The notes under the pieces are model-generated. The model ran no database searches. It was not told where the DNA came from and saw nothing but the letters and a program-made list of their open reading frames with translations. From assembly GCA_002855745.1 (NCBI GenBank), contig NDWX01000014.1, positions 1 through 46,712 of the forward strand: a stretch of 46,712 bases of DNA, read 5' to 3'. This stretch comes from Thermofilum sp. NZ13 (GTDB lineage: Archaea > Thermoproteota > Thermoprotei > Thermofilales > Thermofilaceae). Below are positions 1 to 46,712 of this stretch, in pieces (position 1 is the stretch's first letter; every line of letters starts with the position of its first letter). Made by a program: the position numbers and the translations under genes.

Positions 1-100
1 TATCAGGCGATACCGGCAGATATCAAATGATATCACCTGATATCACGCGAAATCACCTGATATCATGTGATATCAGGCGAAATCAAGAGATACCGGGTGA
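1..100. repeat. 10-bp tandem array, consensus TATCANNNGA
   Basis: Ten consecutive units of exactly 10 bp fill positions 1-100; each starts TATCA (variants TACCG, AATCA) and ends GA, with three variable bases between. An eleventh, decayed unit may follow at 101-110. The array is cut by the left window edge, so its true length is unknown. Ten is not a multiple of three and the frames carry stops or odd peptides, so a coding origin is unlikely. One unit per DNA turn would place repeated protein contacts on one face of the helix. A ParB-like gene begins about 0.9 kb away; a link between the two is inference. Confidence 0.85.
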
Positions 101-312
101 TGCCGCGCGGCGCCAGGGGGCTTGGCGCGGGCAAGGCCTCCCAGGGGGAGGTGAGGAGGGTCGCGGAGCTCGCCGAGAGGCTCACCACTTACAGTAAAGA
201 TGCCGCCCTACCCGGGGCGGAGCTCTACCTCATCCTGGAGAACCACGCGGTTCAACATAGCCTACCGGTCATGGACAAGGTTCTACACTACATAGCGGAG
301 AAGCTGGGATAA
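100..312 (+). CDS. Hypothetical protein, 70 aa
   Basis: I do not recognise this family. The frame opens at a GTG at 67 inside the 10-bp array, but ATG at 100, just after the array, is a more natural start. The product has a basic N-terminus, then a predicted helical stretch (VRRVAELAERLTTY) and a second helical segment near the C-terminus ending in YIAEKLG. It has no cysteine pairs, signal peptide or membrane segment. Codon use is rich in third-position G/C like the nearby regulator and ParB genes, which supports it being real. It could be a small DNA-binding or antitoxin-like protein, but nothing in the sequence proves that. Confidence 0.4.
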   Translation: MPRGARGLGAGKASQGEVRRVAELAERLTTYSKDAALPGAELYLILENHAVQHSLPVMDKVLHYIAEKLG

Positions 313-431
313 CCCAAGGGCAGCGGTAGCGCTAGGCTGGCTACAGGGGCCCTGCGCCTCGCTTTTCAGGCCGCGCAGCCCGGGCCCGTTTCCCTGAGGC
401 ACGCTGGGCTCGCCCTCCTGCGCCTCTGACT

Positions 432-560
432 CTACCCCGCGAGCGTGGAGCGCTTGAGCTCCTTCACCGCGCTCCAGAGGGGCTCGTGGAGGTACGCTGC
501 CCTCAGCTCCCCCAGGCTCACCGCGTAGCCGCCGACCACGACCAGCCTCCTGGGCTTCAT
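432..560 (-). CDS. Small hypothetical protein, 42 aa
   Basis: A short minus-strand frame starts at ATG (560) and ends at TAG (432). The product begins MKPRRLVVVGGYAVSLGEL, a beta-strand-like hydrophobic run with glycines, followed by an amphipathic helix rich in K, E and L. Codons end mostly in G or C, as in neighbouring genes. A TATA-like CTTATAAG lies 21-28 bases upstream of the ATG, suitable for a leaderless or short-leader transcript. No family is recognised. The promoter spacing and codon bias are the main support; it could still be chance. Confidence 0.45.
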   Translation of the reverse strand: MKPRRLVVVGGYAVSLGELRAAYLHEPLWSAVKELKRSTLAG

Positions 561-580
561 CACTATTGTTGGCCCCGGGG

Positions 581-588
581 CTTATAAG
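581..588 (-). promoter_or_regulatory. TATA box for the 42-aa gene
   Basis: CTTATAAG, a near-ideal archaeal TATA box, sits 21-28 bases upstream of the ATG at 560 in an otherwise GC-rich stretch. It is palindromic, so direction is set only by the downstream frame. The remainder of 313-640 shows no other convincing gene. Confidence 0.45.
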
Positions 589-640
589 GCGGCTAGCCGC
601 TTAAAAATGAGACGGGGGTATCGGTGAAAGTGGAAACGCA

Positions 641-931
641 CTAAGCCTTCGGCTCCCCCCACAGCTCCCTCGCCAGCTTGTCCAGCACCTCCGCCGCCCT
701 GCGGCCCTTCTCTGTGAGCGAGAAGACCCTGACCCTCTTCCCGAGCCTCCTCTCCGAGACCAGCTCGAGCTCCTTCAGGTCGAGGAGGATCTTCTCAGCG
801 TACTGGGAGTTCTCCACGCCCAGAGCCCTCATGATGTCCTTCTTGATCGCCTCCCCGCCAACGTGGAGGAGGAAAAGGAGGACGATGATGTGCCTCCTGT
901 TCAGCTCCCAGACGAAGCTGTACTCGCCCAC
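641..931 (-). CDS. Winged helix-turn-helix transcriptional regulator, 96 aa
   Basis: A small single-domain winged-helix protein of PadR/MarR-like appearance. Residues 14-60 form the helical part (IIVLLFLLHVGGEAIKKDIM then ALGVENSQYAEKILLDL), followed by a basic wing strand (RRLGKRVRVFSLTEKGRRA) typical of these domains. It has no ligand-binding extension, so it is probably a dimeric DNA-binding repressor or activator. The start is GTG at 931. It is divergent from the ParB-like gene at 1039, with a shared 107-bp promoter region that contains an inverted repeat (GGAAAC/GTTTCC), so autoregulation and control of the parB-like gene are plausible. The exact family is unresolved. Confidence 0.8.
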   Translation of the reverse strand: MGEYSFVWELNRRHIIVLLFLLHVGGEAIKKDIMRALGVENSQYAEKILLDLKELELVSERRLGKRVRVFSLTEKGRRAAEVLDKLARELWGEPKA

Positions 932-946
932 GCTCCCTGAAACGGG

Positions 947-968
947 GGAAACATTATTATTCGTTTCC
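947..968. promoter_or_regulatory. Inverted repeat GGAAAC-N10-GTTTCC, candidate operator
   Basis: Perfect 6-bp arms separated by an AT-rich 10-bp spacer lie 16 bases upstream of the winged-helix gene start, in the intergenic region shared with the ParB-like gene. The AT-rich spacer may itself hold the minus-strand TATA element. This is consistent with a dimeric winged-helix operator; binding is inferred. Confidence 0.45.
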
Positions 969-1038
969 GGTGAAATAGTGCTGTATTAATTGTTGTTAAA
1001 GCCCCAAGAATTTAAGACCTCGAGACCCCCTAGACTGT

Positions 1039-1941
1039 GTGAGCGTCGAGGTCGCCTACGTCCCCCTTGAGAGGCTGGACGTGAGCGAGGAGTACAACGC
1101 CCGCCGAATAGTGCCGGAGGAGGAGGTGCAGAAGCTCAAGGAGAACATCAGGCTCAACGGCCTCCTCCAGCCCCTCGTCGTGACGCCGCCCGAGGAGGGC
1201 GGGGACAAGCTCTACGTGGTCTGCGGGAGGCTGAGGCTCGAGGCCTTAAGGAGGCTCAGCAGGGAGGACCCCCAAGCGTTCCAGAGGCTCTTCCCCAGCG
1301 GCGTGCCCGTTATAGTCAGGAGGATGACTAGGAGGGAGGCGCTGATCCTCTCTCTGAGCGAGAACATCCGGAGGGGTAGTATGGGGAAGGACGAGGTCGG
1401 CGCTGCGGTGGCGGAGCTGGAGGAGCGGTTCGGGCTGAGCAGGGAGGAGGTTCAGAGGCGCCTCCAGATGGCTGGCCACGAGCTCGAGGTGATCATGCGC
1501 GTCTACAGGGCTCTGCGGAGGCCCGTGGCGAGCCCCGTGAAGCCTGGCAGGCCGAGGAGCGAGGAGAAAGAGAGGCCCGTCTCGAAGACCGGCAGGGTGG
1601 TGCTGCACATGGCTGTGAAGAAGCTGGCTGAGAGGGGTCTGGTGAGGGATGAGGGCGAGGCGATCAGGAGGCTGGAGGAGGTGGCCAGGGGGATGAGCGT
1701 GGGGGAGGCGAAGCAGCTGGCCCACAGGATCCGCTCAGACCCCTACCTGCTCCGCGACGAGGACAGGCTGCGCAGGGTCGTCGAGGAGATCAAGGCCACC
1801 AACTACGTCGACCGCCTCGTCTCCATACGGGCGGACCACGTCGCCAGGATAACCGCGATAGCCGAGAGGGAGGGCAAGACCTTCGACCAGGTCCTCAACG
1901 AGCTCCTCGACGCCGCCTTCGCGAAGCTTGGGTACAAGTAG
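1039..1941 (+). CDS. ParB/Spo0J-family protein with RHH-like C-terminal tail
   Basis: Residues about 5-115 are a ParB N-terminal (ParB/Srx) domain: PLERLDVS, then VVCGRLRLEALRRL matching the nucleotide-binding GxRR-type motif, and SLSENIRR matching the ENxxR box. Residues about 125-155 look like the central helix-turn-helix. The last ~45 residues (VSIRADHVARITAIAERE onward) resemble a ribbon-helix-helix/CopG dimerisation and DNA-binding unit, unlike the bacterial ParB C-domain. ParB proteins bind centromere-like repeats and act in DNA partition or transcription. No ParA partner is visible in the window. A GAATTTAAG TATA-like element about 25 bases upstream of the GTG at 1039 suggests a leaderless transcript. 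Codon use is GC-rich, as in the adjacent accessory genes. Confidence 0.85.
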   Translation: MSVEVAYVPLERLDVSEEYNARRIVPEEEVQKLKENIRLNGLLQPLVVTPPEEGGDKLYVVCGRLRLEALRRLSREDPQAFQRLFPSGVPVIVRRMTRREALILSLSENIRRGSMGKDEVGAAVAELEERFGLSREEVQRRLQMAGHELEVIMRVYRALRRPVASPVKPGRPRSEEKERPVSKTGRVVLHMAVKKLAERGLVRDEGEAIRRLEEVARGMSVGEAKQLAHRIRSDPYLLRDEDRLRRVVEEIKATNYVDRLVSIRADHVARITAIAEREGKTFDQVLNELLDAAFAKLGYK

Positions 1942-2412
1942 CCGCTCACGGGCAGTAAATTGACCCTCAGTGGATTACAGGGCTTACTGGAGCAATAAAT
2001 TGACCTAAACCTGCACTCTGTTAACCACAAAGAGTGTCCCTACCGCCGCAAGCATCGCCTCAGCGGCGCCCGCCAGCACACCGTTCCTCTAGCCGCTGCC
2101 GGTGAGCTGACCTGCCTCACTTACAGGCGCCTGAAGGCCTCTGGCAACGAGGCGTGCTCCTCGAGCGGGATGCGGCTGTCTTCGATGTAGACGGGCTTCT
2201 CGAAGCTTTACACTAGCGTGTCGGAGTGCCCTGGCTTCAGGCCACACAGATCCTCACAGGCAAGCCCACCTGCTCCTCGTAACCCCGCGCAGCGCGGAGG
2301 GGGCTTTGATCTTGCGAGGAGTGTGCACCCAGCCCCTCGGCCGTGAGCCCTCGCCTCGCCGCGGGTGTGCTGTATCGAAAACAATAATAATATCTGCTGC
2401 ACTGCTATAATC
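1942..2412. other. Intergenic region with repeats and probable gene remnants
   Basis: No intact gene is visible. TAAATTGACC occurs twice (1956-1965 and 1996-2005), exactly 40 bp apart. On the minus strand two short stretches read like protein ends: 2121-2207 (KPVYIEDSRIPLEEHA... ending at TAA, with an in-frame stop just upstream and no start) and 2237 to about 2285 (YEEQVGLPVRICVA then stop). These look like eroded C-termini of small genes. AT-rich sequence at 2383-2395 is the likely promoter of the downstream ATPase gene. Confidence 0.5.
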
Positions 2413-4218
2413 GTGCGGAGGCCAGTCTGGGTTATTCTCTTAGTGCTACCTCCCACTGTAGCCTGGCTCTACGCCAGCAACCTCCTTTCAACGGCCACTA
2501 ACCCGCTCATGTGGGCTTTAAGGGCGGTGTGGGGTGCTGTGGTGATGACAGGTGCCCTGGCTTTGAGCGTTGCCTTGGCAGTGTGGAGCAAGAACGATGT
2601 GACACTATTGAGGAGCGAGGATGGCGTCATCGTGGGCACCGCTGGCGTCTACGCGTTCGCGATGGCTGTTGGCTATGCGGCCTCGCCAATCCCCCTGGCG
2701 TCGCTGCCCGTTGCCGACAGGCTCGCTGTATCGGTTGCCCAGAGGGGAGCCTTCGTTGCCTGCGTCTACTTCTCACTACTCAGGCCTCCAGTGGAGAGGG
2801 CTAAAGTTGCTGCGAGGGCTCTGGAGGCCCTGGGGTTCAAGGTGATCGACACGAATGTGCCGACAATCACTGCTGGCCGGGCGATGCCCGTGGAGTACGC
2901 CGACGGCTTCGGAACAATCGTGGTGGAGAGGGACTGGAGGGGCAGGGAGAGGGCCTCGTTCTACCCCGTCACCGGCCGGGGAAAGAGGGTGTACATCATA
3001 TCCCTGCCGGCGAGGCACCAGGCTGAGCCCAGAGCCGTCAGGGAGGCGGTGAACAGGCTTTTAATGCTCGCTAGGCCCCCGGCGCCCGGGGAGGGCATCG
3101 AGATAGGGGAGTACGAGGGGGGTGGGGCTTTGCTCCTGCCGTTCAACACGCACGTCGGCGTGTTCGGCATCACGGGTGCCGGGAAGAGCTCGCTGCTGGC
3201 GCTCATAGCGAGGGACCTGCCGGAGGACGTCTTGATCATCGACTTCTGGGGAGAGTACGCTGGCCTCTACGGGTTCCACGTGGCTAAGCCCGTCGACCCT
3301 GTCGTGGAGCTTTCGGCGGAGGAGGCCGCCGAGATACTGGACAACAGCGCTGAGCTGGTGTGGGGCGAGGACGGGAGGTTCACGCCCATCGTGTACAACG
3401 TGGTGGTGCAGGCCGTGCAACGGGTGGCTGAGAGGGGCGTGGAGCCCACGGCCGAGGCGCTGGTGGCCGAGCTGAGGGCCTGGAGGGCGAGGGAGTCTAG
3501 GCCGGACGTGGCGGCGGCGATCGACGCGGCCCTCAGGCGGGTAGCGCTACTGGGCGGTGGAGGCTTCAGCACGAAGCTGAGGCTCGGCCGCACAGTCCTC
3601 GACTTATCGGGCTTGAGCGACTACGCCAAGGTGGCTGTGGCTAACGCGGTCATCTACCGCCTCCTCAAGACCCGCGCCCACCGCAGGCTCACCGTCATAA
3701 TCGACGAGGTCCACCGCCTGGCGCCGACGAGGGGCTACTCGAGGCCCCTCGAGAACCTGCTCCGCGAGGGCAGGGCGCTGAACATACGAGTAGTCATGGC
3801 GGACCAGACCCTCACGGCCGTGAACAGCGCGGCCGTCAGCCAGTGCGGGATGCTCATAATCTTCCAGCACAACCCCGCAGACCTGCCAGTGCTGCAGAGG
3901 ATGCTCGGCAGCATGGCCAGCGTCGTGACCTCGCTCCAGCCTAGGGAGGTCTTGGTGTGGCACGGTGGGGGCTGGAGGCGCGGCGTCATACACGAGGCGC
4001 CCCGCCTAGCACCCAAGGGAGTTGCTACAATGCAGGCTAGGATCGAGGAGGTCGCGAGGATAGTGGCTCAGAGGTACAGGGTTAAAGCCGATGACATCCT
4101 CGCGCTCTACGACCTCAAGGCTAGGCCCGAGGGCCTGGAGGAGCCACTGAGGAGCGCCTACAGGGAGTTCCTCGCCAGGATAGGCGAGCCCGCTGACCCG
4201 GGAAGCCCGGAGGAGTAG
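2413..4218 (+). CDS. Membrane-anchored HerA/VirB4-type ATPase, CedB-like
   Basis: About 601 aa from GTG at 2413; an ATG-type frame extension to 2365 exists but an AT-rich TATA-like tract (about 2385-2395) would then lie inside the gene. The N-terminal ~125 residues hold several hydrophobic segments (VWVILLVLPPTVAWLYA; WGAVVMTGALALSVALAVW; GVYAFAMAVGYAA; GAFVACVYFSLL). The ATPase core has Walker A GITGAGKSS (about 252-260), HerA-type IIDFWGEYAG, and Walker B with DEVHRL (about 455). Length, membrane N-terminus and HerA core resemble CedB of crenarchaeal DNA import (Ced/Ted), homologous to conjugation ATPases. No CedA-like or pilin partner is seen, so it could also be a chromosome-pumping or plasmid-transfer ATPase. 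The upstream ParB-like gene suits a DNA-handling module. Confidence 0.85.
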   Translation: MRRPVWVILLVLPPTVAWLYASNLLSTATNPLMWALRAVWGAVVMTGALALSVALAVWSKNDVTLLRSEDGVIVGTAGVYAFAMAVGYAASPIPLASLPVADRLAVSVAQRGAFVACVYFSLLRPPVERAKVAARALEALGFKVIDTNVPTITAGRAMPVEYADGFGTIVVERDWRGRERASFYPVTGRGKRVYIISLPARHQAEPRAVREAVNRLLMLARPPAPGEGIEIGEYEGGGALLLPFNTHVGVFGITGAGKSSLLALIARDLPEDVLIIDFWGEYAGLYGFHVAKPVDPVVELSAEEAAEILDNSAELVWGEDGRFTPIVYNVVVQAVQRVAERGVEPTAEALVAELRAWRARESRPDVAAAIDAALRRVALLGGGGFSTKLRLGRTVLDLSGLSDYAKVAVANAVIYRLLKTRAHRRLTVIIDEVHRLAPTRGYSRPLENLLREGRALNIRVVMADQTLTAVNSAAVSQCGMLIIFQHNPADLPVLQRMLGSMASVVTSLQPREVLVWHGGGWRRGVIHEAPRLAPKGVATMQARIEEVARIVAQRYRVKADDILALYDLKARPEGLEEPLRSAYREFLARIGEPADPGSPEE

Positions 4219-4255
4219 AAAAGAATAAATAAAACTATTTACAATATTATTTTAA

Positions 4256-4315
4256 GCCTGCAGAGGGTCCTGGAGCGCCGCCGAGCGGTGAAGCGGCGGG
4301 AGGAGCCCTGCAGGC
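4256..4315. repeat. Hairpin downstream of the HerA-like gene
   Basis: Perfect 8-bp arms GCCTGCAG (4256-4263) and CTGCAGGC (4308-4315) enclose further complementary segments (GGGTCCT/AGGAGCCC and CCGCC/GGCGG). It starts 37 bases after the stop codon and follows an AT-rich tract, so it could be a terminator, the start of a small RNA, or an element end. Confidence 0.5.
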
Positions 4316-4325
4316 GACACAGTGC

Positions 4326-4386
4326 TTCCCCGAGAAAACTGGCGCCCGTAGCAGGGGGAGGAGGGGGTGCCTGCACTCTCGGGGAA
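4326..4386. repeat. Second hairpin with 10-bp perfect arms
   Basis: TTCCCCGAGA (4326-4335) and TCTCGGGGAA (4377-4386) are exact inverted complements separated by 41 bp. It lies between the first hairpin and the left end of the TnpB element. No protein frame accounts for it. Confidence 0.55.
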
Positions 4387-4537
4387 AAGAGAGTGGGGCG
4401 AGAGGGGGTAGCGTAAGGCAGACCAGAGGCCCCGGGCACCTAGGCTACGCCGACCCCTTCGTGCTAGTGTTTAGGGGGGAGTGGCGGCCGGGGCCTGGGA
4501 GCCCGAGAGAAAGCCCCTTTAAAAACACCCTTTTTTA

Positions 4538-4598
4538 CCCCACGTAACCCCACCATTCACGCTCCTCAGGGACGTGGTGGGAGCGGGGTTACGTGGGG
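4538..4598 (+). repeat. Left-end hairpin of TnpB element, copy 1
   Basis: Perfect 14-bp arms CCCCACGTAACCCC (4538-4551) and GGGGTTACGTGGGG (4585-4598) flank a conserved core beginning ACCATTCACGCTCCTCAGGG. Copies at 42319-42373 and 42693-42752 keep the core but have different stem sequences that still pair. A T-rich run (TTTTTT) precedes each hairpin. This is the best conserved structural mark of the element. Confidence 0.85.
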
Positions 4599-5270
4599 GG
4601 CTGGGCCCCCCGTGAGGGGGGTGGCGGGCTACGTCGGTGAGGCTCCGCGCTTGTGGACGCTCCGCTCGTAGGGGCCTCCCGGCGTGGCAGCGGAGGCGTG
4701 AAGGTGCCGGCACGCGGGGCCGCGCCCCGATCGTAGGGGCCCGGCCCTGGGCCGGTAGTGCCCGCCCGCAAGCCGGCTGCCCGAGGCCTGCGCCCCGCTC
4801 CGCTCGCAGGGGCCTGGGCGCGGGCTAGGGCGGGGGGCTCTGCTCTCGGGCTACCCTACCCCGCCGCCCCCTGGCAGCCGGCCCCCTGCCCTCGGGGGTG
4901 GACGGGCCGCTAGCGCAGCGTTGGCGCCGCCGGGCCTGGGCTGGCTCGGCGGGAGGGCCGCATCAACAGCCCACGCGCCTGGGGCCGCGCGCGGCAGGCT
5001 GGGGCCGGGGTGGCCGAGTCACAGTGTGTGAGATTGTGCTCGTGACCGCTGATGCTGAGCGACGCGCCTGTGGACGCTAGCTCGCGCTGAGCTCTGCTAC
5101 TGTAACGACCGCTAGCTCACATGGTGTGAGACGCTACGCCGCCGCATAGCAGCGTACACCTCTGGGGGCTGGGCTTTGGCTGCGACTCCCCCGCACCTCA
5201 CGCCTCTGGGCGTGAGGGCGGATGGGGGCCGCGGCGCGAGGCCCGGCTCCCCGGTAAAAGGGGTGAGACT
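4599..5270 (+). ncRNA. Candidate structured leader RNA of TnpB element, copy 1
   Basis: This 670-bp stretch has no credible protein frame but matches the corresponding leader of copy 2 (41661-42318) over nearly its whole length, with conserved blocks such as GGTAGTGCCCGCCCGCAAGC and ACGGGCCGCTAGCGCAGC. One hairpin next to tnpB shows compensatory change between copies. This suggests a transcribed structured RNA, or a DNA structure, belonging to the element. In known TnpB systems the guide (omega) RNA is at the 3' end, so a long 5' structure is unusual. Whether it is transcribed cannot be seen here. Confidence 0.45.
5196..5217 (+). repeat. Hairpin upstream of tnpB, copy 1
   Basis: CCTCACGCC (5196-5204), loop TCTG, GGCGTGAGG (5209-5217): a perfect 9-bp stem with a tetraloop. 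In copy 2 (41717-41738) the stem is CCCCGCTCC/GGGGTGGGG with loop TCCG, still fully paired with two G-U pairs. Confidence 0.75.
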
Positions 5271-6677
5271 ATGAGCGGGGAAGGTAAGGGGAGTAAAAAC
5301 GGCGAGAAGCTCTTCGACGCGTACAGGGTCTGGGAAGTCAAGGCGAACAGGGAGCTGAGGTTGAGGCTCCGAAAGCTCTACTACGACATCGCCTCTGCGG
5401 TTGAGCGGGCCAGCGAGGAGCTCGAGAGGAAGCACGGCGACGCGTTCAGGAGGGAGCCGGGGAGGTTCAGAGAGGAGTTGATCGAGGGGGCCTCAAGGAT
5501 TGCGGGGCTGCCGAAGGGTCTCTTCTGGTACGCCGCGGAGTGGCGCAGGATGGTCGCGGAGGCCAGGGGGAAGTCTAAGAGGCGGAGCAGGTTCACACCG
5601 CCAGCGGTGCCGCTACTCGTGAAGGTGGTCAACGGCAACGAGAGGCTTCACGGCGGCGGTAACGCTGTTGCGGTGCTTGATGCCTCCAGTGGCATGCTAC
5701 GCGTCCCCAGTGCCAGCCTCACTGTGAGGCTGAGGCCCTCCCTTATCAAAGCAGTGCTCGAGGATATCCAGAGGTTCAGTGACGTGAAGCTGACTTTACA
5801 GCTCACAGCAAAGGGGAGGCTGAGGCTGGTGGCTCAGCGCAAGGTGAGGCCACCATGGTGGGACGGCGACGGCAAATTGGCCATCGTAGCGGTGGACGTG
5901 AACTCGAGCCACGGGCTCTACCTGATGGCCTTCGCATTCGACGGCGAAGTCAGGCTCATTGCTCAGCGCGTCTTCAAGCCGCCCAACACCACGTTGCTGA
6001 GGCTGCTGGCGGCGCTACTGCGTAGCTACTCCAAGGTTAAGTGCTGGAGTGAAGCCGTCGAGAGGTTCAGGGAGAGGAGGGACGTCAGGGGGCTGCAGAG
6101 AACGGGAAGGAGCCACGCGGTGGATGAGGCCTTGAGGCTCGCTGAGAGGCTCAGGGCGAAGATAAACATGACGCCGGAGCGCGCCGAGAAAGTAGCGGGG
6201 CAGGCGTCGAGGAAGGTTCGAAAACTCAACGACGACTGGATTCGCAGCGTGCTCAGGGAGATGAGGGTGCTGGTGAGAAAGCTACGGGACCAGGGCTACC
6301 TCGTCGTCATCGTCGTCGACGTGCCCCGGGCCGAGTCCCTCAGGGGCTCGCAGCTGCAGAGGACGCTGCTCAGAGTGGCGAGGAGGCTGGAGAACCTCGC
6401 TCTCTACGAGGGAGCGAAGTGGTTCGAGCCTGACAACAACGTCTCGGGCAAGTGGTGCCCACTGTGCGGGAAAGAGGGGGTGGAGGTTCAGAAGCGCTAC
6501 TACCGCTGCACGGGCTGCGGCCTGGTCTACGGCAGGGACTGGGCCACAACGTTCAACGCCGCCAAGCTCTTTTTAAAGGCCTGCGATACGAAGAAGCAGC
6601 TCGAGGCGCTACAGAGCTGGCTGCAGAGCCACCCACGAGCTCTGATTCACGGCTCGCTCAGCTTCCCCAAGCGGTGA
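5271..6677 (+). CDS. tnpB: TnpB-like RNA-guided nuclease/transposase accessory protein
   Basis: 468 aa. The C-terminal half is TnpB/OrfB-like: RuvC-I at AVDVNSSHG (D209), a long helical insertion, a RuvC-II position at VVIVVDVPRAES (D350, or E355), a four-cysteine zinc ribbon (CPLC 396/399 and CTGC 413/416), and RuvC-III at GRDWATTFNAAK (D423). The N-terminal ~200 residues would be the WED/REC region. Known TnpB proteins are omega-RNA-guided DNA nucleases. The usual RuvC-II Glu appears to be Asp here and in copy 2, so activity is uncertain. Start ATG follows a GGGGTGAG ribosome-binding site. It is full length and about 70-75% identical by eye to the copy at 40248-41660, with no frameshift, implying both are recent or maintained. 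Confidence 0.88.
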   Translation: MSGEGKGSKNGEKLFDAYRVWEVKANRELRLRLRKLYYDIASAVERASEELERKHGDAFRREPGRFREELIEGASRIAGLPKGLFWYAAEWRRMVAEARGKSKRRSRFTPPAVPLLVKVVNGNERLHGGGNAVAVLDASSGMLRVPSASLTVRLRPSLIKAVLEDIQRFSDVKLTLQLTAKGRLRLVAQRKVRPPWWDGDGKLAIVAVDVNSSHGLYLMAFAFDGEVRLIAQRVFKPPNTTLLRLLAALLRSYSKVKCWSEAVERFRERRDVRGLQRTGRSHAVDEALRLAERLRAKINMTPERAEKVAGQASRKVRKLNDDWIRSVLREMRVLVRKLRDQGYLVVIVVDVPRAESLRGSQLQRTLLRVARRLENLALYEGAKWFEPDNNVSGKWCPLCGKEGVEVQKRYYRCTGCGLVYGRDWATTFNAAKLFLKACDTKKQLEALQSWLQSHPRALIHGSLSFPKR

Positions 6678-6870
6678 AGGAGAGGAGGAGGCCCCGGCCC
6701 CCAGTTCCCGCTACGGCGTGTAGCCGTCTGGCGGGTGCCGCGCGCGGCGCGATGAGGCGAAGAGGCGCCGAGGCTAAAGCCCCGCCGCACAGCCCCTAGC
6801 TGGCGTATATTGGCGGGGCGGGCCGAAGGCGCGGAGCCCATGAAAACCCTTAAAAGGGGCCCTCAGAAGA
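6678..6870 (+). ncRNA. Conserved 3' region of TnpB element, candidate omega-RNA
   Basis: After the tnpB stop, about 190 nt are almost identical in both copies. A strong hairpin lies at 6707-6735 (CCCGC-ACGGC-GTGTA-GCCGT-GCGGG arrangement) followed by the palindrome GCCGCGCGCGGC. The copies differ mainly by a short indel near 6800. In studied TnpB elements the omega-RNA overlaps the tnpB 3' end and right end, so this is the expected place; transcription is inferred. Confidence 0.45.
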
Positions 6871-6900
6871 GTGAAGGGGGCAGATGAGCCGGGCGCGGCC

Positions 6901-40038: not shown

Positions 40039-40247
40039 GGCCGCGCCTGGCTCATCTACCCCTTCACTGATCCGGGGCCCCGTTAAGGGTTTTCATGGGC
40101 TCCGCGCCTTCGGCCCGCCCCGCCGGCTTGGGGCTGTGCGGCGGGGGCTCCGCCTCGGCGCCTCCTTGCCTCATCACACCGCGCGCGGCACCCGCCAGAC
40201 GGCTACACGCCGTGGCGGGAACTGGGGCCGGGGCCTCTCCCTCTGCT
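40039..40247 (-). ncRNA. Conserved 3' region of TnpB element, copy 2, candidate omega-RNA
   Basis: Nearly identical to 6678-6900: the ACGGC-GTGTA-GCCGT hairpin, a GCCGCGCGCGG block and the end motif AACCCTTAACGGGGCCCC. Beyond that, a GTGAAGGGG.AGATGAGCC segment also matches the start of the tgtA long frame; here it carries an in-frame TAG and is not coding. Confidence 0.45.
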
Positions 40248-41660
40248 TCACCGCTTTGGGAAGCTGAGCGAGCCGTGTATCAGTGCTCTCGGGTGGCTCT
40301 GGAGCCACTGGCTCAGCGCTTCTAGCTGCTTCTTCGCATTGCAGGCCTTCAAAAAGAGCTTTGCAGCGTTGAATGCTGCGGCCCAGTCCCTGCCGTAGAC
40401 CAGGCCGCAGCCCGCGCAACGGTAGTATCTTCTCTGAACCTCCACCCCCTCTTTCCCGCAGAGGGGGCAACGCTTCCCAGACACGTTATTCTCAGGCTGG
40501 AACCACTTAGCCCCCTCGTAGAGCGCTAGGTTCTTGACGCGCTCCGCGACCCTCAGCAGTGTTCTCTGTAGCTTTGTTCCCCTCAGGCTCTCGGCCCTTG
40601 GCACGTCTGCTACGAGTACAACAAAGTAGCCTTGGTCCCTGAACTTTCTGACCAAGGCCCTTAGCTCCTTGAGCGCGCCTCTGATCCAGTCGTTGTTAAT
40701 CTTCTTCACTTTCCTCGATGCCTGCCTAGCTATGCGCTCAGCCCTCTCCGGCGTGAGGTTCACCTTCGCCCTCAGCCTCTCCGCCAGCCTCAAGGCCCCT
40801 TCCACCGCGGAGCCCCATCCTTCCCTCTGTAGCCTCCTGATGTCTCTCCTTTGCTTGAACCTCTCGACAGCTTCGCCCCAGCTCTTAACCTCGGAGTAGC
40901 TGCGCATAACAGCCGCGAGGAGCCTCAGCAGAGTCGTGTTGGGCGGCTTGAACACGCATTGAGCCACCAGCCTCACCTCGTCGTCGAAGGTGAAGGTAGC
41001 GAGGTAGAGGCCGTGGCTGCTGTTCACGTCAACGGCGATTGTTGCTAGCTTGGAATTGCCGTCCCACCGGGCAGGCCTCACTTTGCGGTGCGCAATGAGG
41101 CGAAGCCTGCCCCTAGCCGTTAGCTGCAGCGTCAGCTTCACGTCGCCGAACCTCTCGACGTCCTCGAGTACTGCTCTAATCAAGGATGGCTTCAGCCTCA
41201 CCACGACACCAGCGCTACTAATGCGTAGCTCACCCCTGTATGTGTCAAGGACTGCAGCGGCGTTAGTGTTACCGTGGAACCTCTCACTGTTGCCGACCAC
41301 CTTGACCAGTAGTGGCAACGGCGGGGGCGTGAACCTTGTGCGCTTGTTGCTTTTCCTCCTGGCCTCCGCATCCATCCTGCACCACTCCACAGCGTAGTAG
41401 AGCAGGCCCTTCGGCAGCCCAGCCAGCCTCGAAGCCTCCTCGATTAACTCCTCTCCGAACCTCTCCGGCTCTTGCGTGAATTCCTCGCCGTACTTCCCCT
41501 CGAGATCCTCGCTGGCGTGCTCAACGGCAAGGGTGATGTCGGAGTAGAGCTTTCGGAGCCGAAGCCTCAGCTTCCTGTTAGCTTTAATCTCCCAGACCCT
41601 GAACGCATCGACGAGCCTCTCGCCGTTTTTACTCCCCTTGCTCCCGTTTCTCTCACTCAT
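40248..41660 (-). CDS. tnpB: TnpB-like RNA-guided nuclease/transposase accessory protein, copy 2
   Basis: 470 aa, full length. Same motifs as copy 1: RuvC-I IAVDVNSSHG, RuvC-II position VVLVADVPRAES (Asp instead of the usual Glu), zinc ribbon CPLC and CAGC, RuvC-III GRDWAAAFNAAK, and an identical C-terminus SHPRALIHGSLSFPKR. The two N-terminal insertions relative to copy 1 are small. A GAGGTGATGG site precedes the ATG. Intact frames in both copies, with protein identity lower than DNA identity of the flanks in places, suggest continued selection on the protein. Confidence 0.88.
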   Translation of the reverse strand: MSERNGSKGSKNGERLVDAFRVWEIKANRKLRLRLRKLYSDITLAVEHASEDLEGKYGEEFTQEPERFGEELIEEASRLAGLPKGLLYYAVEWCRMDAEARRKSNKRTRFTPPPLPLLVKVVGNSERFHGNTNAAAVLDTYRGELRISSAGVVVRLKPSLIRAVLEDVERFGDVKLTLQLTARGRLRLIAHRKVRPARWDGNSKLATIAVDVNSSHGLYLATFTFDDEVRLVAQCVFKPPNTTLLRLLAAVMRSYSEVKSWGEAVERFKQRRDIRRLQREGWGSAVEGALRLAERLRAKVNLTPERAERIARQASRKVKKINNDWIRGALKELRALVRKFRDQGYFVVLVADVPRAESLRGTKLQRTLLRVAERVKNLALYEGAKWFQPENNVSGKRCPLCGKEGVEVQRRYYRCAGCGLVYGRDWAAAFNAAKLFLKACNAKKQLEALSQWLQSHPRALIHGSLSFPKR

Positions 41661-42318
41661 ACCCCATCACCTCTTTCTCTCGGGAGGCCGGGCCTTGCGC
41701 CGCGGCCCCCGTCCGCCCCCACCCCCGGAGGAGCGGGGTGCGGGGGAGCCGCAGCACAGCCCAGCCCCCCTCAGGGGCGCTGCGTAGTGTCTCACGCTGT
41801 GTGAGCCCTGCTGGTAACTGACGCAGTCAAGTCGGCTCGCAACTCAGCGTGTAGTAGCCTGCAGAGCGCTGGGCGCGTCGGTCAGCATTAGCGGCTATAA
41901 GCGCAGTCTCACTTGCTGTGAAGCCCCGGCCTGCCGCGCGCGGCCCCAGGCGCGGGGGCGTCGACGCGGCCCTCCCGCCGAGGCCAGCCCAGGCCCGGCG
42001 GCGCCAAAGCTGCGCTAGCGGCCCGTCCACCCCCGAGGGCGGGGGGCCGGCTGCCAGGGGGCGGGGAGCAGCCGAGGGCCGCCGAAACCCAACCCCTCGC
42101 CCTAGCCCGCCCCAGGCCGCGTGGGCGTGGAGGCGGGCCTCGGGCAGCCGGCTTGCGGGCGGGCACTACTGGCCCAGGGCCAGGCCGCGTGGGCGCGGCC
42201 CCGCTAGCCGGCACCTTCACGCCTCCGCAGCCGCGCCGGGAGCCCGCGTGGGGATCCCTGGGGGCGCGGCGCCTCACCGGCGTAGCCCGCCACCCCCCTC
42301 GCGGGGGGCCCGGCCTCC
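41661..42318 (-). ncRNA. Candidate structured leader RNA of TnpB element, copy 2
   Basis: Counterpart of 4599-5270. It keeps the conserved blocks and the tnpB-proximal hairpin, and accumulates changes concentrated in stems or in spacer segments. Many long frames cross it on both strands because of its extreme GC content, but none agrees between copies, so a protein is unlikely. Confidence 0.45.
41717..41738 (-). repeat. Hairpin upstream of tnpB, copy 2
   Basis: On the element strand CCCCGCTCC-TCCG-GGGGTGGGG; all nine positions pair, two as G-U. Copy 1 has a different stem sequence at the same place, so pairing is conserved rather than sequence. Confidence 0.7.
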
Positions 42319-42373
42319 CCCTCTAACCCACTCCCACCACGTCCCTGAGGAGCGTGAATGGTGGGTTAGAGGG
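42319..42373 (-). repeat. Left-end hairpin of TnpB element, copy 2
   Basis: Arms 42319-42331 and 42361-42373 pair perfectly over 13 bp (CCCTCTAACCCAC on the element strand) around the same core as copy 1. The stem differs from copy 1 at several positions on both sides in a compensatory way. Confidence 0.85.
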
Positions 42374-42489
42374 AGAAAAAGGGGTTGTTTTCGGCGGCCC
42401 CGGCCCTCTGGCTCCACCGCCTTTCCCCCCTAAACACTAGTGCGCTGGAGGCGGTGCAGCCTAGGTGCCTGGGGCCTCGCCTCCTGCAG

Positions 42490-42790
42490 GCGAGCCGCTG
42501 TGCCCCCACCCGCGGCCTCCCCCGGCCCTCCCCTTATCCCGGGCCTCGTGGGCGCGGGCCTCGAGGATTGGGCCTGGGCTTGCGGGCCCCCTGCGCCTCC
42601 GCCGGGCCGTGGAGCCCACGTGGGGATCCGCTCGGCGCGGCTTTCACGGGCGCCCCGGGGGCCACCAGAGCCGTCGCCGGCCCTGGCCCCACCCCCTCCA
42701 GCCCCAGTCCCATCACCTCCCTGAGGAGCGCGAATGGTGGGGTCTGGAGGGGAACAGGGGGGTAGAGAAAAAATAGGGTTGTTTTCAGGT
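42490..42790 (-). repeat. Solo third left end of the TnpB element family
   Basis: About 300 bp without a gene. It carries a third version of the left-end hairpin (arms 42693-42706 and 42738-42752, stem with one bulge) and the same core with two or three changes (CCATTCGCGCTCCTCAGGGA). A preceding T-rich run and a GGATCCCCACG.GGGCTCC block further downstream are also shared with copy 2. No tnpB follows in this part before copy 2 begins, so it is a remnant or a tandem, more diverged end. Confidence 0.65.
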
Positions 42791-42814
42791 CTCGCTTGCT
42801 CTGGGGGGTGTGCT

Positions 42815-43510
42815 CTAGGTGGCTGGTTCCTCCCGCAGTGCTCGCAGGTCCACTCTCCAGTACCTCTTCTGGATCACTCTGTCCTGGGGGTACTCTGTCA
42901 CCCTCTCCTCGAGGTACGCCACGTCGGGGCTCGAAATCATCCTGAACAGCCAAGCCTCGCTCAATGTCCAGGAGGTCAGGGTTTCGACCCCCCTCCACCG
43001 CTCCTCGCTCGCCCTGCTGCCGAGCAGTATCGTTACGATGGGCACGCCGAGGCCCCCGGGGGCCCTGGAGGCCCTCGCGAAGGCCCCGGCCGGCGCGTGG
43101 CGCTGCATCTCGTCCCTGAACCTGCTCAGCCAGCTGTACCACTCGCGCATCTCCGCGCTCGTGTCGGAGAGGCTCTTGCCGTAGCTGGCGTAGACGTCGA
43201 CCTTCACTGTGCCACCCCGCGCGCTGTACTGCAGGTGGGCGTACTCCCTGGCGCCGTAGACGAGGACGGCCTCCGCCCGCTCCCCCTCAGCTACCTGCAT
43301 CAGCCACGTCCACTCCTGGATCTCGAGCAGGGACATGACCCCGAGGGCCCTCAGCACCTCTTGGCCGCGCTGCACCTCGGAGCTCCTCCGAAGCTCGCAG
43401 TGCCTCTCTACGATGCCCATCAGCGAGTCGAAGAGCCCCCTGAGGACGTCGTGGGGCAGAGTCCTCGACGCGCTCTGATGCTCCCTGAGGTACTCCTCAA
43501 GGCTTCGCAT
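42815..43510 (-). CDS. Unrecognised protein, 231 aa
   Basis: Starts at ATG 43510, overlapping the upstream helicase gene by 14 bp. No family is recognised. It is rich in E, R and W; likely helical segments are SLEEYLREHQSASRTLPHDV, LEIQEWTWLMQVAEGE and SDTSAEMREWYSWLSRFRDE. A central strand-rich part (AVLVYGAREYAHLQYSA, TVKVDVYASYG) precedes GLGVPIVTILLGS. There are no zinc or nucleotide-binding motifs and no membrane segments. As the last gene in the operon with an XPD-type helicase and a HerA-like ATPase it may be a nuclease or adaptor partner, for example NurA-like, but conserved acidic motifs for that could not be confirmed. Confidence 0.7.
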   Translation of the reverse strand: MRSLEEYLREHQSASRTLPHDVLRGLFDSLMGIVERHCELRRSSEVQRGQEVLRALGVMSLLEIQEWTWLMQVAEGERAEAVLVYGAREYAHLQYSARGGTVKVDVYASYGKSLSDTSAEMREWYSWLSRFRDEMQRHAPAGAFARASRAPGGLGVPIVTILLGSRASEERWRGVETLTSWTLSEAWLFRMISSPDVAYLEERVTEYPQDRVIQKRYWRVDLRALREEPAT

Positions 43511-44975
43511 TAGTACCACCGCCCTCTATTTTCTCCAGGTTCCTCAGGTCAACCTCCTCGAGCACCAGCGTCGGGCTGAAGTCGAAGCGCCTGAAGCGGT
43601 AGTCCGCCAGGACTATGAGCGGGCTGTCCTCGGGCTTCCGGGTGGCCCTCCCGACGCACTGCAGGGTTGTGGTCACCATCGGCACCCACCTCGCAGCCTC
43701 ACCGCTGATGCCTAAGCGGTTGTAGTAGCGCTCGTACCTCGCCTCCACCTCAGGCGGCAGGAAGGGCGCCCCCAGGAGGACTACAGCGTCCGCGGAGAGG
43801 TCGACTCCCTCGCTGAACCTGCCGTAGACGGTGTAGAGCGCCACCCCCCTCCACTCCGCTGGGAGGCGCTCCTCGTAGAAGTCCACCCCGGCGATGATTT
43901 GCCTCGCAACCCTCTCTGTGGCGAAAGCCAGCACCCTGGCGAATCTACGCCTCAGCGTGGCCAGCAGCTTGACGTAGCCCCAAATCGTCTCCGAGCCGTA
44001 CTTGCTCGTCAGGTCCGTCACCACGAGTGCCTTCCTCGGCTGCTGAGGCACCCTGACGACCTGAGCCCCGAAGAGCCTCTCCAGCCCCTCGGGGATCGTC
44101 GCTGAAACGTAGACGCGCGGCTCGACGCGGGGCCTCCAGGGGGGCATGTAGACCTCCACGGTCCCAGCCTCCCTGTAGGGCACGCCGCCGTCCGCCACAG
44201 CCCTGAGGTACTGTACCAGCGGCGCCAGGTGCGACCTGCTGGCCTTGAGCTTCTCGCGGTAGAGCGGCAGGACGCTGTCGAGCAACTGTAGCGCAGCCTC
44301 GGCCGAGGGCTTCTCCAGCACCTCCTCGGCCTCACCGGCCAGCTCCGGCTCGCTTGTTCTCAGCTCGTCGAGCGCCAGCTCCAGCCTCGCGGCGCTGAGC
44401 TTTCTGACTCTTGGCGCGAGGAGGTTGTGCACCTCGTCCACCACCGCGGCGCTGTAGTAGCCGCTCACCCTGCGGTGGTAGTTCTGGACCACCACGTCGG
44501 CTCTGCTAATGATTGCGTCCTGGGCGTAGTAGTGGCACACTCCCGGTAGCAGTTTAGGTAGCTCCTCCCAGCTCTCCGCCCATATGTCGCCCACCCCCTC
44601 CCTGACAAGGGAGAGGAAGTGGGGGCACTGCGCCCTGAAAGCCCTGCAGAACTCCGAGGCGTCCTCGACGCTCCTCGCGTAGGGGCACAGCCTCTCCCTG
44701 CCAGCCGCCACAAAGGCCCTCAAGCCCAGCCTCGAAGCGTCGGCGACAACGCGCCTGCCAACCTCCAGCGCTCTGGTGAGCCACAGCGCCGGCAGCCGCC
44801 GCGAGGCCTTCAATGCCGCCAGCACGGCCAGCGTCTTGCCCCAGCCCGTCGGAGCCACCAGCAGCACGTCGCCCTCGCTCAGCGCCGAGGCGATGAGCCT
44901 AGCAACCTCGGCCTGCCCAGGCCTCGGCTTAAGGCCCGCTTTCTCGAAGAGCTCCTGGACGCTCAACGCCGTCAC
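43497..44975 (-). CDS. XPD/DinG-type Fe-S helicase
   Basis: 492 aa SF2 helicase. Walker A VAPTGWGKT (about 41-48), the DEVH box at 180-183, late motifs GRFSEGVDL and QCVGRATRKPEDS. Four cysteines C97, C110, C117, C147 (LCPYA, FCRAFRAQCPHF, VCHYY) lie between motifs Ia and II, as in the Fe-S domain of XPD/DinG/FANCJ. Such enzymes unwind DNA 5'-3'. The protein is shorter than canonical archaeal XPD and the cysteine spacing (12, 6, 29) differs, so it is likely an accessory paralogue. It follows the HerA-like gene by 1 base. A defence or repair role is inference. Confidence 0.88.
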   Translation of the reverse strand: MTALSVQELFEKAGLKPRPGQAEVARLIASALSEGDVLLVAPTGWGKTLAVLAALKASRRLPALWLTRALEVGRRVVADASRLGLRAFVAAGRERLCPYARSVEDASEFCRAFRAQCPHFLSLVREGVGDIWAESWEELPKLLPGVCHYYAQDAIISRADVVVQNYHRRVSGYYSAAVVDEVHNLLAPRVRKLSAARLELALDELRTSEPELAGEAEEVLEKPSAEAALQLLDSVLPLYREKLKASRSHLAPLVQYLRAVADGGVPYREAGTVEVYMPPWRPRVEPRVYVSATIPEGLERLFGAQVVRVPQQPRKALVVTDLTSKYGSETIWGYVKLLATLRRRFARVLAFATERVARQIIAGVDFYEERLPAEWRGVALYTVYGRFSEGVDLSADAVVLLGAPFLPPEVEARYERYYNRLGISGEAARWVPMVTTTLQCVGRATRKPEDSPLIVLADYRFRRFDFSPTLVLEEVDLRNLEKIEGGGTNAKP

Positions 44976-44976
44976 C

Positions 44977-45834
44977 TCAGAACAGGCGGTAGAGGTGCCA
45001 CCTGCCGTTGTGGAAGGCGATGAACTGTCCCGGCTTCAGCTTCACGATGTACGCCGGCAGGCTGAACTTTTGGATGTAGAGGACGTCGTAGGGGCCGAGC
45101 GGGCCGATGAACATCGTGGGGTAGTCTGCCTCGCTGCCGTCCGGGAACTGCTGGACCCGCACCACCTTTACGCCCCGCCTGCGCCCCACCCGCACGAGGT
45201 CCGTCAATGTTGGTGCGTAGAAGCTCGCCTCCTCGGCCACCAATGTCGTCGGCACGCTGTTCGAGGAGAGGAGCACGTCGCTGATCGCCGCGGCCAGCAC
45301 TGATGCCGCAGTGGCCTTGTTCCACGCCGACCTCAAGGGGGCCAGGTTGAACCTGCCCCCCTCCGCGATTATGTCCTTGAAGCGCTCCAGCGTCGTCAGC
45401 TCAGCGCCCGCCTCAGCGAGCGGCTGAAGCCGCGACCAGGCCGCAGTCGCGCCTAGGCGGTCAAGCACCACCAGCTTCTCGACCGCTCTGAGCAGCCCCT
45501 CGAGGCCCCCGTCCTCGGAGGCCTCCCTCACCGCGCGCTTCAGCACAGCGTACGTGCTGCTCCCGCTGGTCTGCGACTCGCGCTTCACCACCTCCGCCAC
45601 CGCCTGCGGGAGGACTTCCCGCGGCAGCAGCAGAGGCAGCTCATCAGCGCTTTGACCGTACTCGCCGTCGAAGTCTATGATGAGCACCCTTTCGCGCGCA
45701 CCTTGCTTCTGCGAGCTCCGCGCGATGTAGTAGAGGAGGGCTTTCACCAATGAAGTCTTGCCGCACCCTGACTGCCCTAAAACGATGGTGTGCTGCCGGC
45801 TCTCAGCCACTTTCTGCAAGAGAGACTTGAACAA
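44977..45834 (-). CDS. Soluble HerA-like ATPase
   Basis: 285 aa, small and without membrane segments. Walker A LGQSGCGKTSLV (20-28), HerA-type VLIIDFDGEYGQS, Walker B-like TTLVAEEASFYAP, and a C-terminal LKPGQFIAFHNGRWHLYRLF. HerA family members are hexameric DNA translocases. It differs from the membrane-anchored HerA-like protein at 2413-4218. It is in an operon with a winged-helix protein, a 95-aa protein and an XPD-type helicase. No nuclease (NurA) is obvious. Confidence 0.85.
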   Translation of the reverse strand: MFKSLLQKVAESRQHTIVLGQSGCGKTSLVKALLYYIARSSQKQGARERVLIIDFDGEYGQSADELPLLLPREVLPQAVAEVVKRESQTSGSSTYAVLKRAVREASEDGGLEGLLRAVEKLVVLDRLGATAAWSRLQPLAEAGAELTTLERFKDIIAEGGRFNLAPLRSAWNKATAASVLAAAISDVLLSSNSVPTTLVAEEASFYAPTLTDLVRVGRRRGVKVVRVQQFPDGSEADYPTMFIGPLGPYDVLYIQKFSLPAYIVKLKPGQFIAFHNGRWHLYRLF

Positions 45835-45840
45835 GGCTCC

Positions 45841-46128
45841 TCACCTCGCCTTCGGCGGAATCAATAGCACTATCTCGCCCCAGTCCGGCGCCGAGAAGCC
45901 GTAGAGCCGGTCCCTGTTCTCCAGTATCAGCTTGCCCACGCAGTCGCCCTCTGAGCCGTAGACCTCCACGCCGTTCTCCCAGATTACCACGACCGTCCAC
46001 CCAGCCTTGCCGAGGTCGAGGAAGATCTTGGAGGGCCTCACCGGCGCCTCCCACTCGTAGATTCGGTCCTCGATTAGGTCCAGCAGCTTAACCATACCTG
46101 CCAGCTTGTACGCCTCCACCCTCACCAC
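45841..46128 (-). CDS. Unrecognised protein, 95 aa
   Basis: Mixed alpha-beta: an N-terminal helix (LAGMVKLLDLIEDRIYEWEA), then strands around KIFLDLGKAGWTVVVIWENG and GEIVLLIPPKA. It has one isolated Cys and no recognisable motif. It lies 1 base after the winged-helix gene and 6 bases before the HerA-like gene, so it is part of the same operon and probably a small subunit or adaptor. Confidence 0.65.
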   Translation of the reverse strand: MVRVEAYKLAGMVKLLDLIEDRIYEWEAPVRPSKIFLDLGKAGWTVVVIWENGVEVYGSEGDCVGKLILENRDRLYGFSAPDWGEIVLLIPPKAR

Positions 46129-46129
46129 C

Positions 46130-46387
46130 TCAAAGCAGAGCTATGATGTCGCTCAGCCCGATGTCGGGCGTCAGGACGAAGAGCTGCACACGGTAGCGGA
46201 GCGGGCCGGTGGCGGCGAAGGTGCTCCTCGTCAGCCTCGCCACGCTTCCCGTGCTCTCCAGATACTCTAAGACGGCGAGGGCTGTTCTGGGCGGCACCTT
46301 TGCAGCCCTGGCAACCTCCGCTACGCTCACGGCGCCGCGCTTGGAGAGCCGCTCGACCGCGTCAACAACCCTCAAGTAGGCCTCCAT
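46130..46387 (-). CDS. Small winged helix-turn-helix protein, 85 aa
   Basis: The N-terminal ~50 residues form a helix-turn-helix (RGAVSVAEVARAAKVPPRTA then LAVLEYLESTGSVARL) typical of MarR/ArsR-like proteins. The C-terminal part (YRVQLFVLTPDIGLSDIIAL) is unusual. It lies within the HerA/XPD operon and may regulate it or be a DNA-binding component of the complex. Confidence 0.7.
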   Translation of the reverse strand: MEAYLRVVDAVERLSKRGAVSVAEVARAAKVPPRTALAVLEYLESTGSVARLTRSTFAATGPLRYRVQLFVLTPDIGLSDIIALL

Positions 46388-46393
46388 GCCCGC

Positions 46394-46712
46394 TCACCCC
46401 CTCAGAGAGCGGTAGACGATGTAGCCGGTAACGCGGCTGTTCATCAGGCCGTATCTGAGGAAGAACTGGGCTAGAGTCGGCGAGCCGTCGACGTCCTCGG
46501 AGATCAGCACCACCCTGCCACGCGCCTTGGCCAGAACGAAAGCCCTCTTCACGGCGCTGAGCAGCTCAAACTCCCTCGGGTCCATGCAGTGGTAGAGCTC
46601 GCTGGGAGCTATGCCCCGGAGAAGCAACGTAACGGTGCCGTCGTTGCTGCTCAAGGCCTTGACCCGCTCCCCATTCGGGGACGCGGGCCCGGGGATGTCT
46701 ACGCCGGCGCGC
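46394..46712 (-). CDS. Partial unrecognised protein, truncated by the window edge
   Basis: The frame is open from 46712 to the stop at 46394; TTG at 46654 is the first listed start but the in-frame sequence upstream (GVDIPGPASPNGERVKALSS) remains open to the edge, so the gene probably begins outside. Visible: TVTLLLRGIAPSELYHCMDP, AVKRAFVLAKARGRVVLI and SPTLAQFFLRYGL. No family is recognised. It is upstream in the HerA/XPD operon, with 6 bases to the winged-helix gene. Confidence 0.6.
   Translation of the reverse strand, partial: RAGVDIPGPASPNGERVKALSSNDGTVTLLLRGIAPSELYHCMDPREFELLSAVKRAFVLAKARGRVVLISEDVDGSPTLAQFFLRYGLMNSRVTGYIVYRSLRG

Follow-up and report, generated by a model that had tools for sequence, protein, structure and literature searches.

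A stretch of 46,712 nt from the heat-loving archaeon Thermofilum sp. NZ13 (contig NDWX01000014.1, assembly GCA_002855745.1), called the window throughout, carries two intact TnpB elements that are inverted relative to each other, and in both of them a long leader precedes the tnpB gene. An earlier sequence-only reading of the window had proposed that two intact copies share a leader upstream of tnpB as well as a 3' region; all three parts indeed match between the copies, and the genes encode proteins of 468 and 470 amino acids. We compared the elements with further copies in the NZ13 genome (G000, 1.88 Mb in 33 contigs) and in the closed genome of a second strain of the same species (G023). 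Our best reading, in which we place moderate confidence on the basis of sequence comparison, is a TnpB transposon subtype whose 5' leader is a large structured RNA of a new class, with a probable cis effect on TnpB expression. The two elements are composed as follows:

4323 to 5267, forward strand: non-coding leader RNA of copy A (945 nt, 37 predicted helices)
5271 to 6677, forward strand: tnpB of copy A, 468 amino acids, with D209, D350/E355, D423 and a zinc finger (C396, C399, C413, C416)
6678 to 6899, forward strand: 3' tail of copy A, omegaRNA-like, terminating in ...GCGCGGCC at 6899, with the 3' flank from 6900
40039 to 40247, reverse strand: 3' tail of copy B, right end at about 40039
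40248 to 41660, reverse strand: tnpB of copy B, 470 amino acids
41664 to 42530, reverse strand: leader RNA of copy B, core at 42145-42383 (covariance model R1, 228 bits)
42574 to 42760, reverse strand: second leader core in tandem, divergent and shorter (R1, 60 bits, E 1.3e-11)

The conserved non-coding leader of copy A covers about 945 nt (4323-5267), from hairpin H0 at 4326 through the ribosome-binding site, and its 5' start probably lies at about 4257. The sequence-only reading had recognized a conserved leader, but with about 850 nt from 4426 it placed the start too far downstream. In other leader copies a different A/T-rich stretch (AAATATTA) takes the same relative place as the promoter-like stretch in front of copy A. 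The GC content of the leader (72%) is near that of the 3' tail (71%), compared to 62% in tnpB and 56% in the species, and leader and tail share short chance matches only. The parts of the copy A leader, all on the forward strand, are:

4225 to 4256: A/T-rich, promoter-like stretch (TTTACAATATTATTTTAA) just 5' of the leader, inferred from the sequence
4257 to 4322: probable 5' domain, by inspection, with outer stem CCTGCAG/CTGCAGG (GGCCCGC/GCGGGCC in other copies)
4326 to 4386: hairpin H0 (TTCCCCGAGA...TCTCGGGGAA)
4531 to 4779: core domain (covariance model R1, 221 bits)
4538 to 4598: hairpin H1, 13-bp stem, with double compensatory changes at 8 pairs
5034 to 5114: hypervariable insert of 80-120 nt, with a closing conserved helix TCACA../..TGTGA
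5164 to 5252: terminal long hairpin, also conserved in front of a second TnpB family
5247 to 5266: CTCCCC..GGGGTGA, ribosome-binding site and C-rich strand

Comparison among the copies demonstrates the fold of the leader, its strand, its non-coding nature and purifying selection on it. For the 246-nt core we built a covariance model on ten copies; in the model-fitted alignment of 11 copies, 22 of 82 pairs carry a compensatory double change and 96.7% of the cells are paired. No shuffle out of 500 did as well, and after a shift of the partners by 1-3 columns at most 7 such pairs and 49% paired cells remained. A model-fitted alignment is biased towards the structure, but aligning the whole leader of seven copies with MAFFT leads to the same result: 260 pairs, 94.3% paired, and 24 double-change pairs (at most 10 when slid). 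Covariation over the family members, which the sequence-only reading had suggested as a check, hence supports the fold. The sense strand folds better than the antisense strand in RNAalifold (-252.7 versus -192.8; 32 versus 18 compensatory pairs), and the ratio of G-U to A-C cells (205:24) likewise indicates that the sense strand is the one that folds.

The copies have diverged enough to show selection, as had been claimed. Between copies A and B the TnpB proteins are 75% identical, with dS 0.86 and dN/dS 0.19, and the divergence of the leader is 0.24. Among the leader-bearing copies in general, tnpB has a pS of about 0.51, dS of 0.77-0.95 and dN/dS of 0.19-0.27, and the leader differs at 16-27% of sites. 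Of the 398 leader indels 329 have lengths not divisible by three, and every frame contains stops; a decayed gene as the origin of the leader is ruled out on these grounds. On this comparative evidence the leader is kept by selection in several long-lived mobile lineages. It is without any match among the known RNA families in Rfam, and by this measure it would represent a new class of structured RNA in Archaea, a claim that belongs to our best reading and shares its moderate confidence.

The family is much larger than the two copies noticed initially, which are real. The NZ13 genome holds 14 full-length tnpB genes of this family plus fragments, and leader matches at 26 places, which by our estimate amount to about 15 leader copies. 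Several contigs begin or end within leaders, suggesting that the assembly broke on them. A full element measures about 3.0-3.5 kb and consists of the left end GTAGCAATGCTAC, a small gene encoding a winged helix-turn-helix (wHTH)-like protein, an A/T-rich promoter-like region, the leader, tnpB and the 3' tail, which terminates in GGCGCGGCC. Both copies in the window lack part of their left side. The wHTH-like gene is found inside full-length elements at L078 4876-5220, L079 4364-4822 and L077 6029-6400, each on the reverse strand, and matches no Pfam family above cut-off; a TTTCGGCG repeat 5' of tnpB or of the leader could be an operator for it.

In full-length copies the leader starts about 0.8-1 kb inside the element. 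This position bears on the idea that the leader is a 5' guide RNA in the manner of IscB/HEARO, an organization of which the sequence-only reading was reminded by the large structured 5' region in front of a RuvC nuclease gene. HEARO guide RNAs carry the guide at their 5' end, and a HEARO-like leader would therefore need to adjoin the left end of the element; it is internal instead, and no flanking guide adjoins it. Furthermore, the variable segments of the leader gave no match above chance against the whole sister genome and the NZ13 loci, RF02033 is unmatched, a Pfam search of TnpB found no HNH domain, and an ordinary omegaRNA-like tail is present at the 3' end. We regard a HEARO-type guide as very improbable. 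What stands of the new layout suggested before is a long, selected, structured 5' RNA outside the known RNA families; its likening to IscB/HEARO has to be given up.

The leader is associated with more than one type of tnpB. A second TnpB family of the NZ13 genome, about 390-420 amino acids long and 30% identical, is likewise preceded by this kind of leader (stretches L045, L052, L064, L066, L068, L069 and L054). In a tree of the tnpB copies of both strains, which is star-like with long tips (copies about 20-25% apart, few close pairs), the presence of the leader changes about five times, at least two of these changes being forced; the leader must therefore have been lost, acquired or exchanged. 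The tree has this shape although many insertions are polymorphic between strains about 3-6% apart, and the tnpB copies appear to be supplied by a diverse pool. G023 has one full leader of the same fold, and NZ13 carries a deletion-bearing copy at the same locus.

Such a distribution could also be that of a hitch-hiking large ornate RNA, like ROOL or GOLLD, that rides TnpB transposons and acts in trans, independent of TnpB. The leader occurs with two TnpB families and is polyphyletic across tnpB lineages, a compact and divergent third leader RNA of the window (42574-42760, reverse strand) lies directly upstream of the copy B leader and has no tnpB of its own directly behind, and the hypervariable insert of 80-120 nt within an otherwise rigid fold brings to mind the disordered linkers known from ROOL and GOLLD (PMC12286853). 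However, the leader precedes tnpB on the sense strand in all copies whose downstream side is assembled, a solitary full-length leader was not found, and for both TnpB families alike the final leader hairpin reaches into the ribosome-binding site. We consider an independent passenger rather unlikely, yet the variable insert makes a trans-acting or cage-like RNA an alternative to be taken seriously.

Outside the species the leader seems to be missing. It is absent from the 25 other genomes of the order save for one weak, rejected match, and from viral contigs and plasmids; an 18-nt conserved leader motif was found among 85,000 genomes only in unrelated bacteria, in about chance number. Two candidate matches in other genera were discarded: a 21.7-bit match in G026 represents a simple hairpin that lies antisense to the tnpB start of that genome, and the single blastn match in G019 is a tRNA-Leu. 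TnpB relatives without leader exist in G025 and G019, where mutual similarity starts about 100-300 nt 5' of tnpB. In its place the leaderless copies of NZ13 have about 400 nt that include a TATA-like box (GGGATATAAGG) as well as a short untranslated region, and one copy retains only both ends of the leader. For the sequence-only reading, family members elsewhere that lack the leader or keep it only as decayed sequence would have spoken against its proposal. Half of this applies: relatives in G025 and G019 and several NZ13 copies lack the leader, but the leaders that do occur are for the most part free of decay.

In the TnpB proteins themselves, Pfam recognizes only the Cas12f1-like TNB domain (PF07282, cut-off 26.3 bits), below cut-off in copy A (22.5 bits, E 1e-4) and above it in copy B (29.1 bits, E 1e-6). 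A fold search, started from a two-sequence AlphaFold model of modest confidence (pLDDT 63.7), returned only Cas12f, TnpB and Fanzor proteins as top matches, with probability near 1 and low TM. D209, D423 and the four zinc-finger cysteines are conserved. The 3' tail is ordinary and omegaRNA-like, with a fixed end and a compensatory hairpin just before it, and lies where the sequence-only reading had expected a 3' region. As TnpB systems have their guide-bearing region at the 3' end (PMC8612924), we infer by analogy that this tail is the guide region.

How might the leader act? It lies, as a sense-strand RNA of about 0.95 kb with several domains, between a promoter-like region and the start codon of tnpB, and leader, tnpB and 3' region would form one transcript. 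The guide function would remain at the 3' end, and the leader would be a structural or regulatory RNA in cis. In both TnpB families the ribosome-binding site follows directly behind the terminal hairpin, and the C-rich strand of CTCCCC..GGGGTGA can pair with that site or, alternatively, with the terminal hairpin. This arrangement suggests that the translation of TnpB is controlled, and the leader may in this way keep it low. Control of TnpB output in cis is the mode we prefer, although only tentatively. The leader may alternatively serve as a scaffold or cage that shields the element's own RNA particle, which we think rather less probable. Stated more broadly, the leader could be a new archaeal class of large ornate RNA (about 1 kb) used as a TnpB module, exchanged among TnpB families and taking part in TnpB expression or in the movement of TnpA-less elements, a view to which we give not quite even chances.

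Several observations weigh against a leader RNA that acts on TnpB. The leader is optional, since several intact mobile copies of the NZ13 genome do without it, and it is thus not essential. Among 398 genomes from the phylum, only two strains of this one species contain it according to the covariance model. Predicted occlusion of the ribosome-binding site, from folding at 37 and 85 degrees, is inconsistent among copies. In RuvC motif II (VDVPRAES) D350 and E355 are invariant, and the usual catalytic E is replaced by D, so that TnpB activity is not to be assumed. Finally, gene conversion among leaders may have lowered their divergence, though it does not itself yield compensatory changes.

Many insertions are polymorphic between the strains: G023 has an empty site with flanks 92-98% identical, and this also applies to leaderless copies. 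Target duplications of about 9-15 bp were found at several polymorphic insertions of both TnpB families, where the right end is fixed and the 5' part is in some cases truncated. They are located at:

L077 6394
L075 5161
L238 9188-9198
L234 15313-15323
L240 6161-6170
L242 7471-7485
L249 11962-11973

Duplications flank full-length copies of G023 (1354319-1357253 and 401597-404350), 5'-truncated copies (C2a, 11 bp; at about 495 kb of G023, 15 bp) and a 388-nt deletion derivative (10 bp). IS607 elements produce no target-site duplication (PMC6188088). Other insertions come with target deletions or with 26-62 nt of extra 5' sequence, whose source could be traced in one case only, to a host gene fragment. 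A short duplication also flanks a chimeric insertion at L236 1258-2316 (about 291,260-292,316 of G000 contig C1), in which 202 nt of a host gene (pyrF-like by eye, in antisense orientation) are joined directly to a 5'-truncated element with deleted tnpB. Neither in G000 nor in G023 did we find a Y1 transposase (TnpA, PF01797), a serine recombinase (PF00239) or an RVT_1 reverse transcriptase, while controls were positive. The insertion marks resemble retrotransposition or one-ended transposition, for which no candidate enzyme was found.

It is therefore worth asking whether the leader belongs to an RNA, or copied, intermediate that moves the elements. Such a role would agree with the fixed 3' end, the 5' truncation of some copies and the target duplications, with the lack of Y1, serine recombinase and reverse transcriptase families in either strain, and with the start of copy A near the predicted RNA start. 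Against it, leaderless copies have empty sites in the other strain as well, the missing reverse transcriptase counts also on this side, and the host DNA of the chimera is antisense to the element, unlike template switching to an mRNA. We judge a transposition RNA improbable. A self-splicing intron, as in IStrons, where structured RNA is likewise combined with tnpB-type elements, seems least probable of all: no group I or group II intron match appeared down to an E value of about 5 (2 in a second search), copies A and B are intergenic and interrupt no gene, and IStrons were not found in Archaea (PMC4227781).

The surroundings of the two copies indicate rearrangement or integration. The right end of copy A is exact (6899|6900), and from 6900 on the sequence is collinear with the same-species genome; the part between the copies (6900-40040) corresponds to G023 872381-905522. 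No close match in G023 exists for the outer flanks (1-4239 and 42800-46712), which carry ParB-like, HerA-like and helicase genes. A collinear middle between unmatched flanks places both elements at rearrangement or integration boundaries.

We know of no large 5' RNA in the known TnpB systems, and to our knowledge very large ornate RNAs are hardly known in Archaea. A selected RNA of nearly 1 kb 5' of tnpB would be an added part in TnpB design. The multi-copy leader family, together with the empty sites in the sister strain, offers a tractable system in which the limits on TnpB expression and the movement of TnpB elements without TnpA become testable.

Compared with known systems, the elements are closest in their protein and 3' end to IS200/IS605- or IS607-type TnpB such as ISDra2 (PMC8612924), sharing a TnpB/Cas12f-type protein by fold search and a conserved 3' tail that ends at the right end, the usual place of the guide RNA. 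Unlike these types they have a long structured 5' leader, a wHTH-like gene inside, no TnpA in the genome, target duplications (about 10-15 bp), no shared motif to the left of the left end and D for E in RuvC motif II. With IscB/HEARO (PMC9755519, RF02033) they share a structured RNA within the 5' untranslated region of a gene for a transposon RuvC nuclease, but the leader is several times longer, internal, without a 5'-end guide or Rfam match, and no HNH domain was found. IStrons (PMC4227781) also have a large structured RNA 5' of transposon genes; in contrast to them, the leader has no group I intron match, and the elements are archaeal and do not lie within genes. The leader approaches OLE, ROOL and GOLLD (PMC12286853) in size (about 600 to over 800 nt) and in combining a rigid multi-domain fold with a variable insert, and ROOL and GOLLD also in their association with mobile elements. 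It has no sequence or Rfam relation to these RNAs, whose covariance models were unmatched, and differs from them in being archaeal and tied to tnpB.
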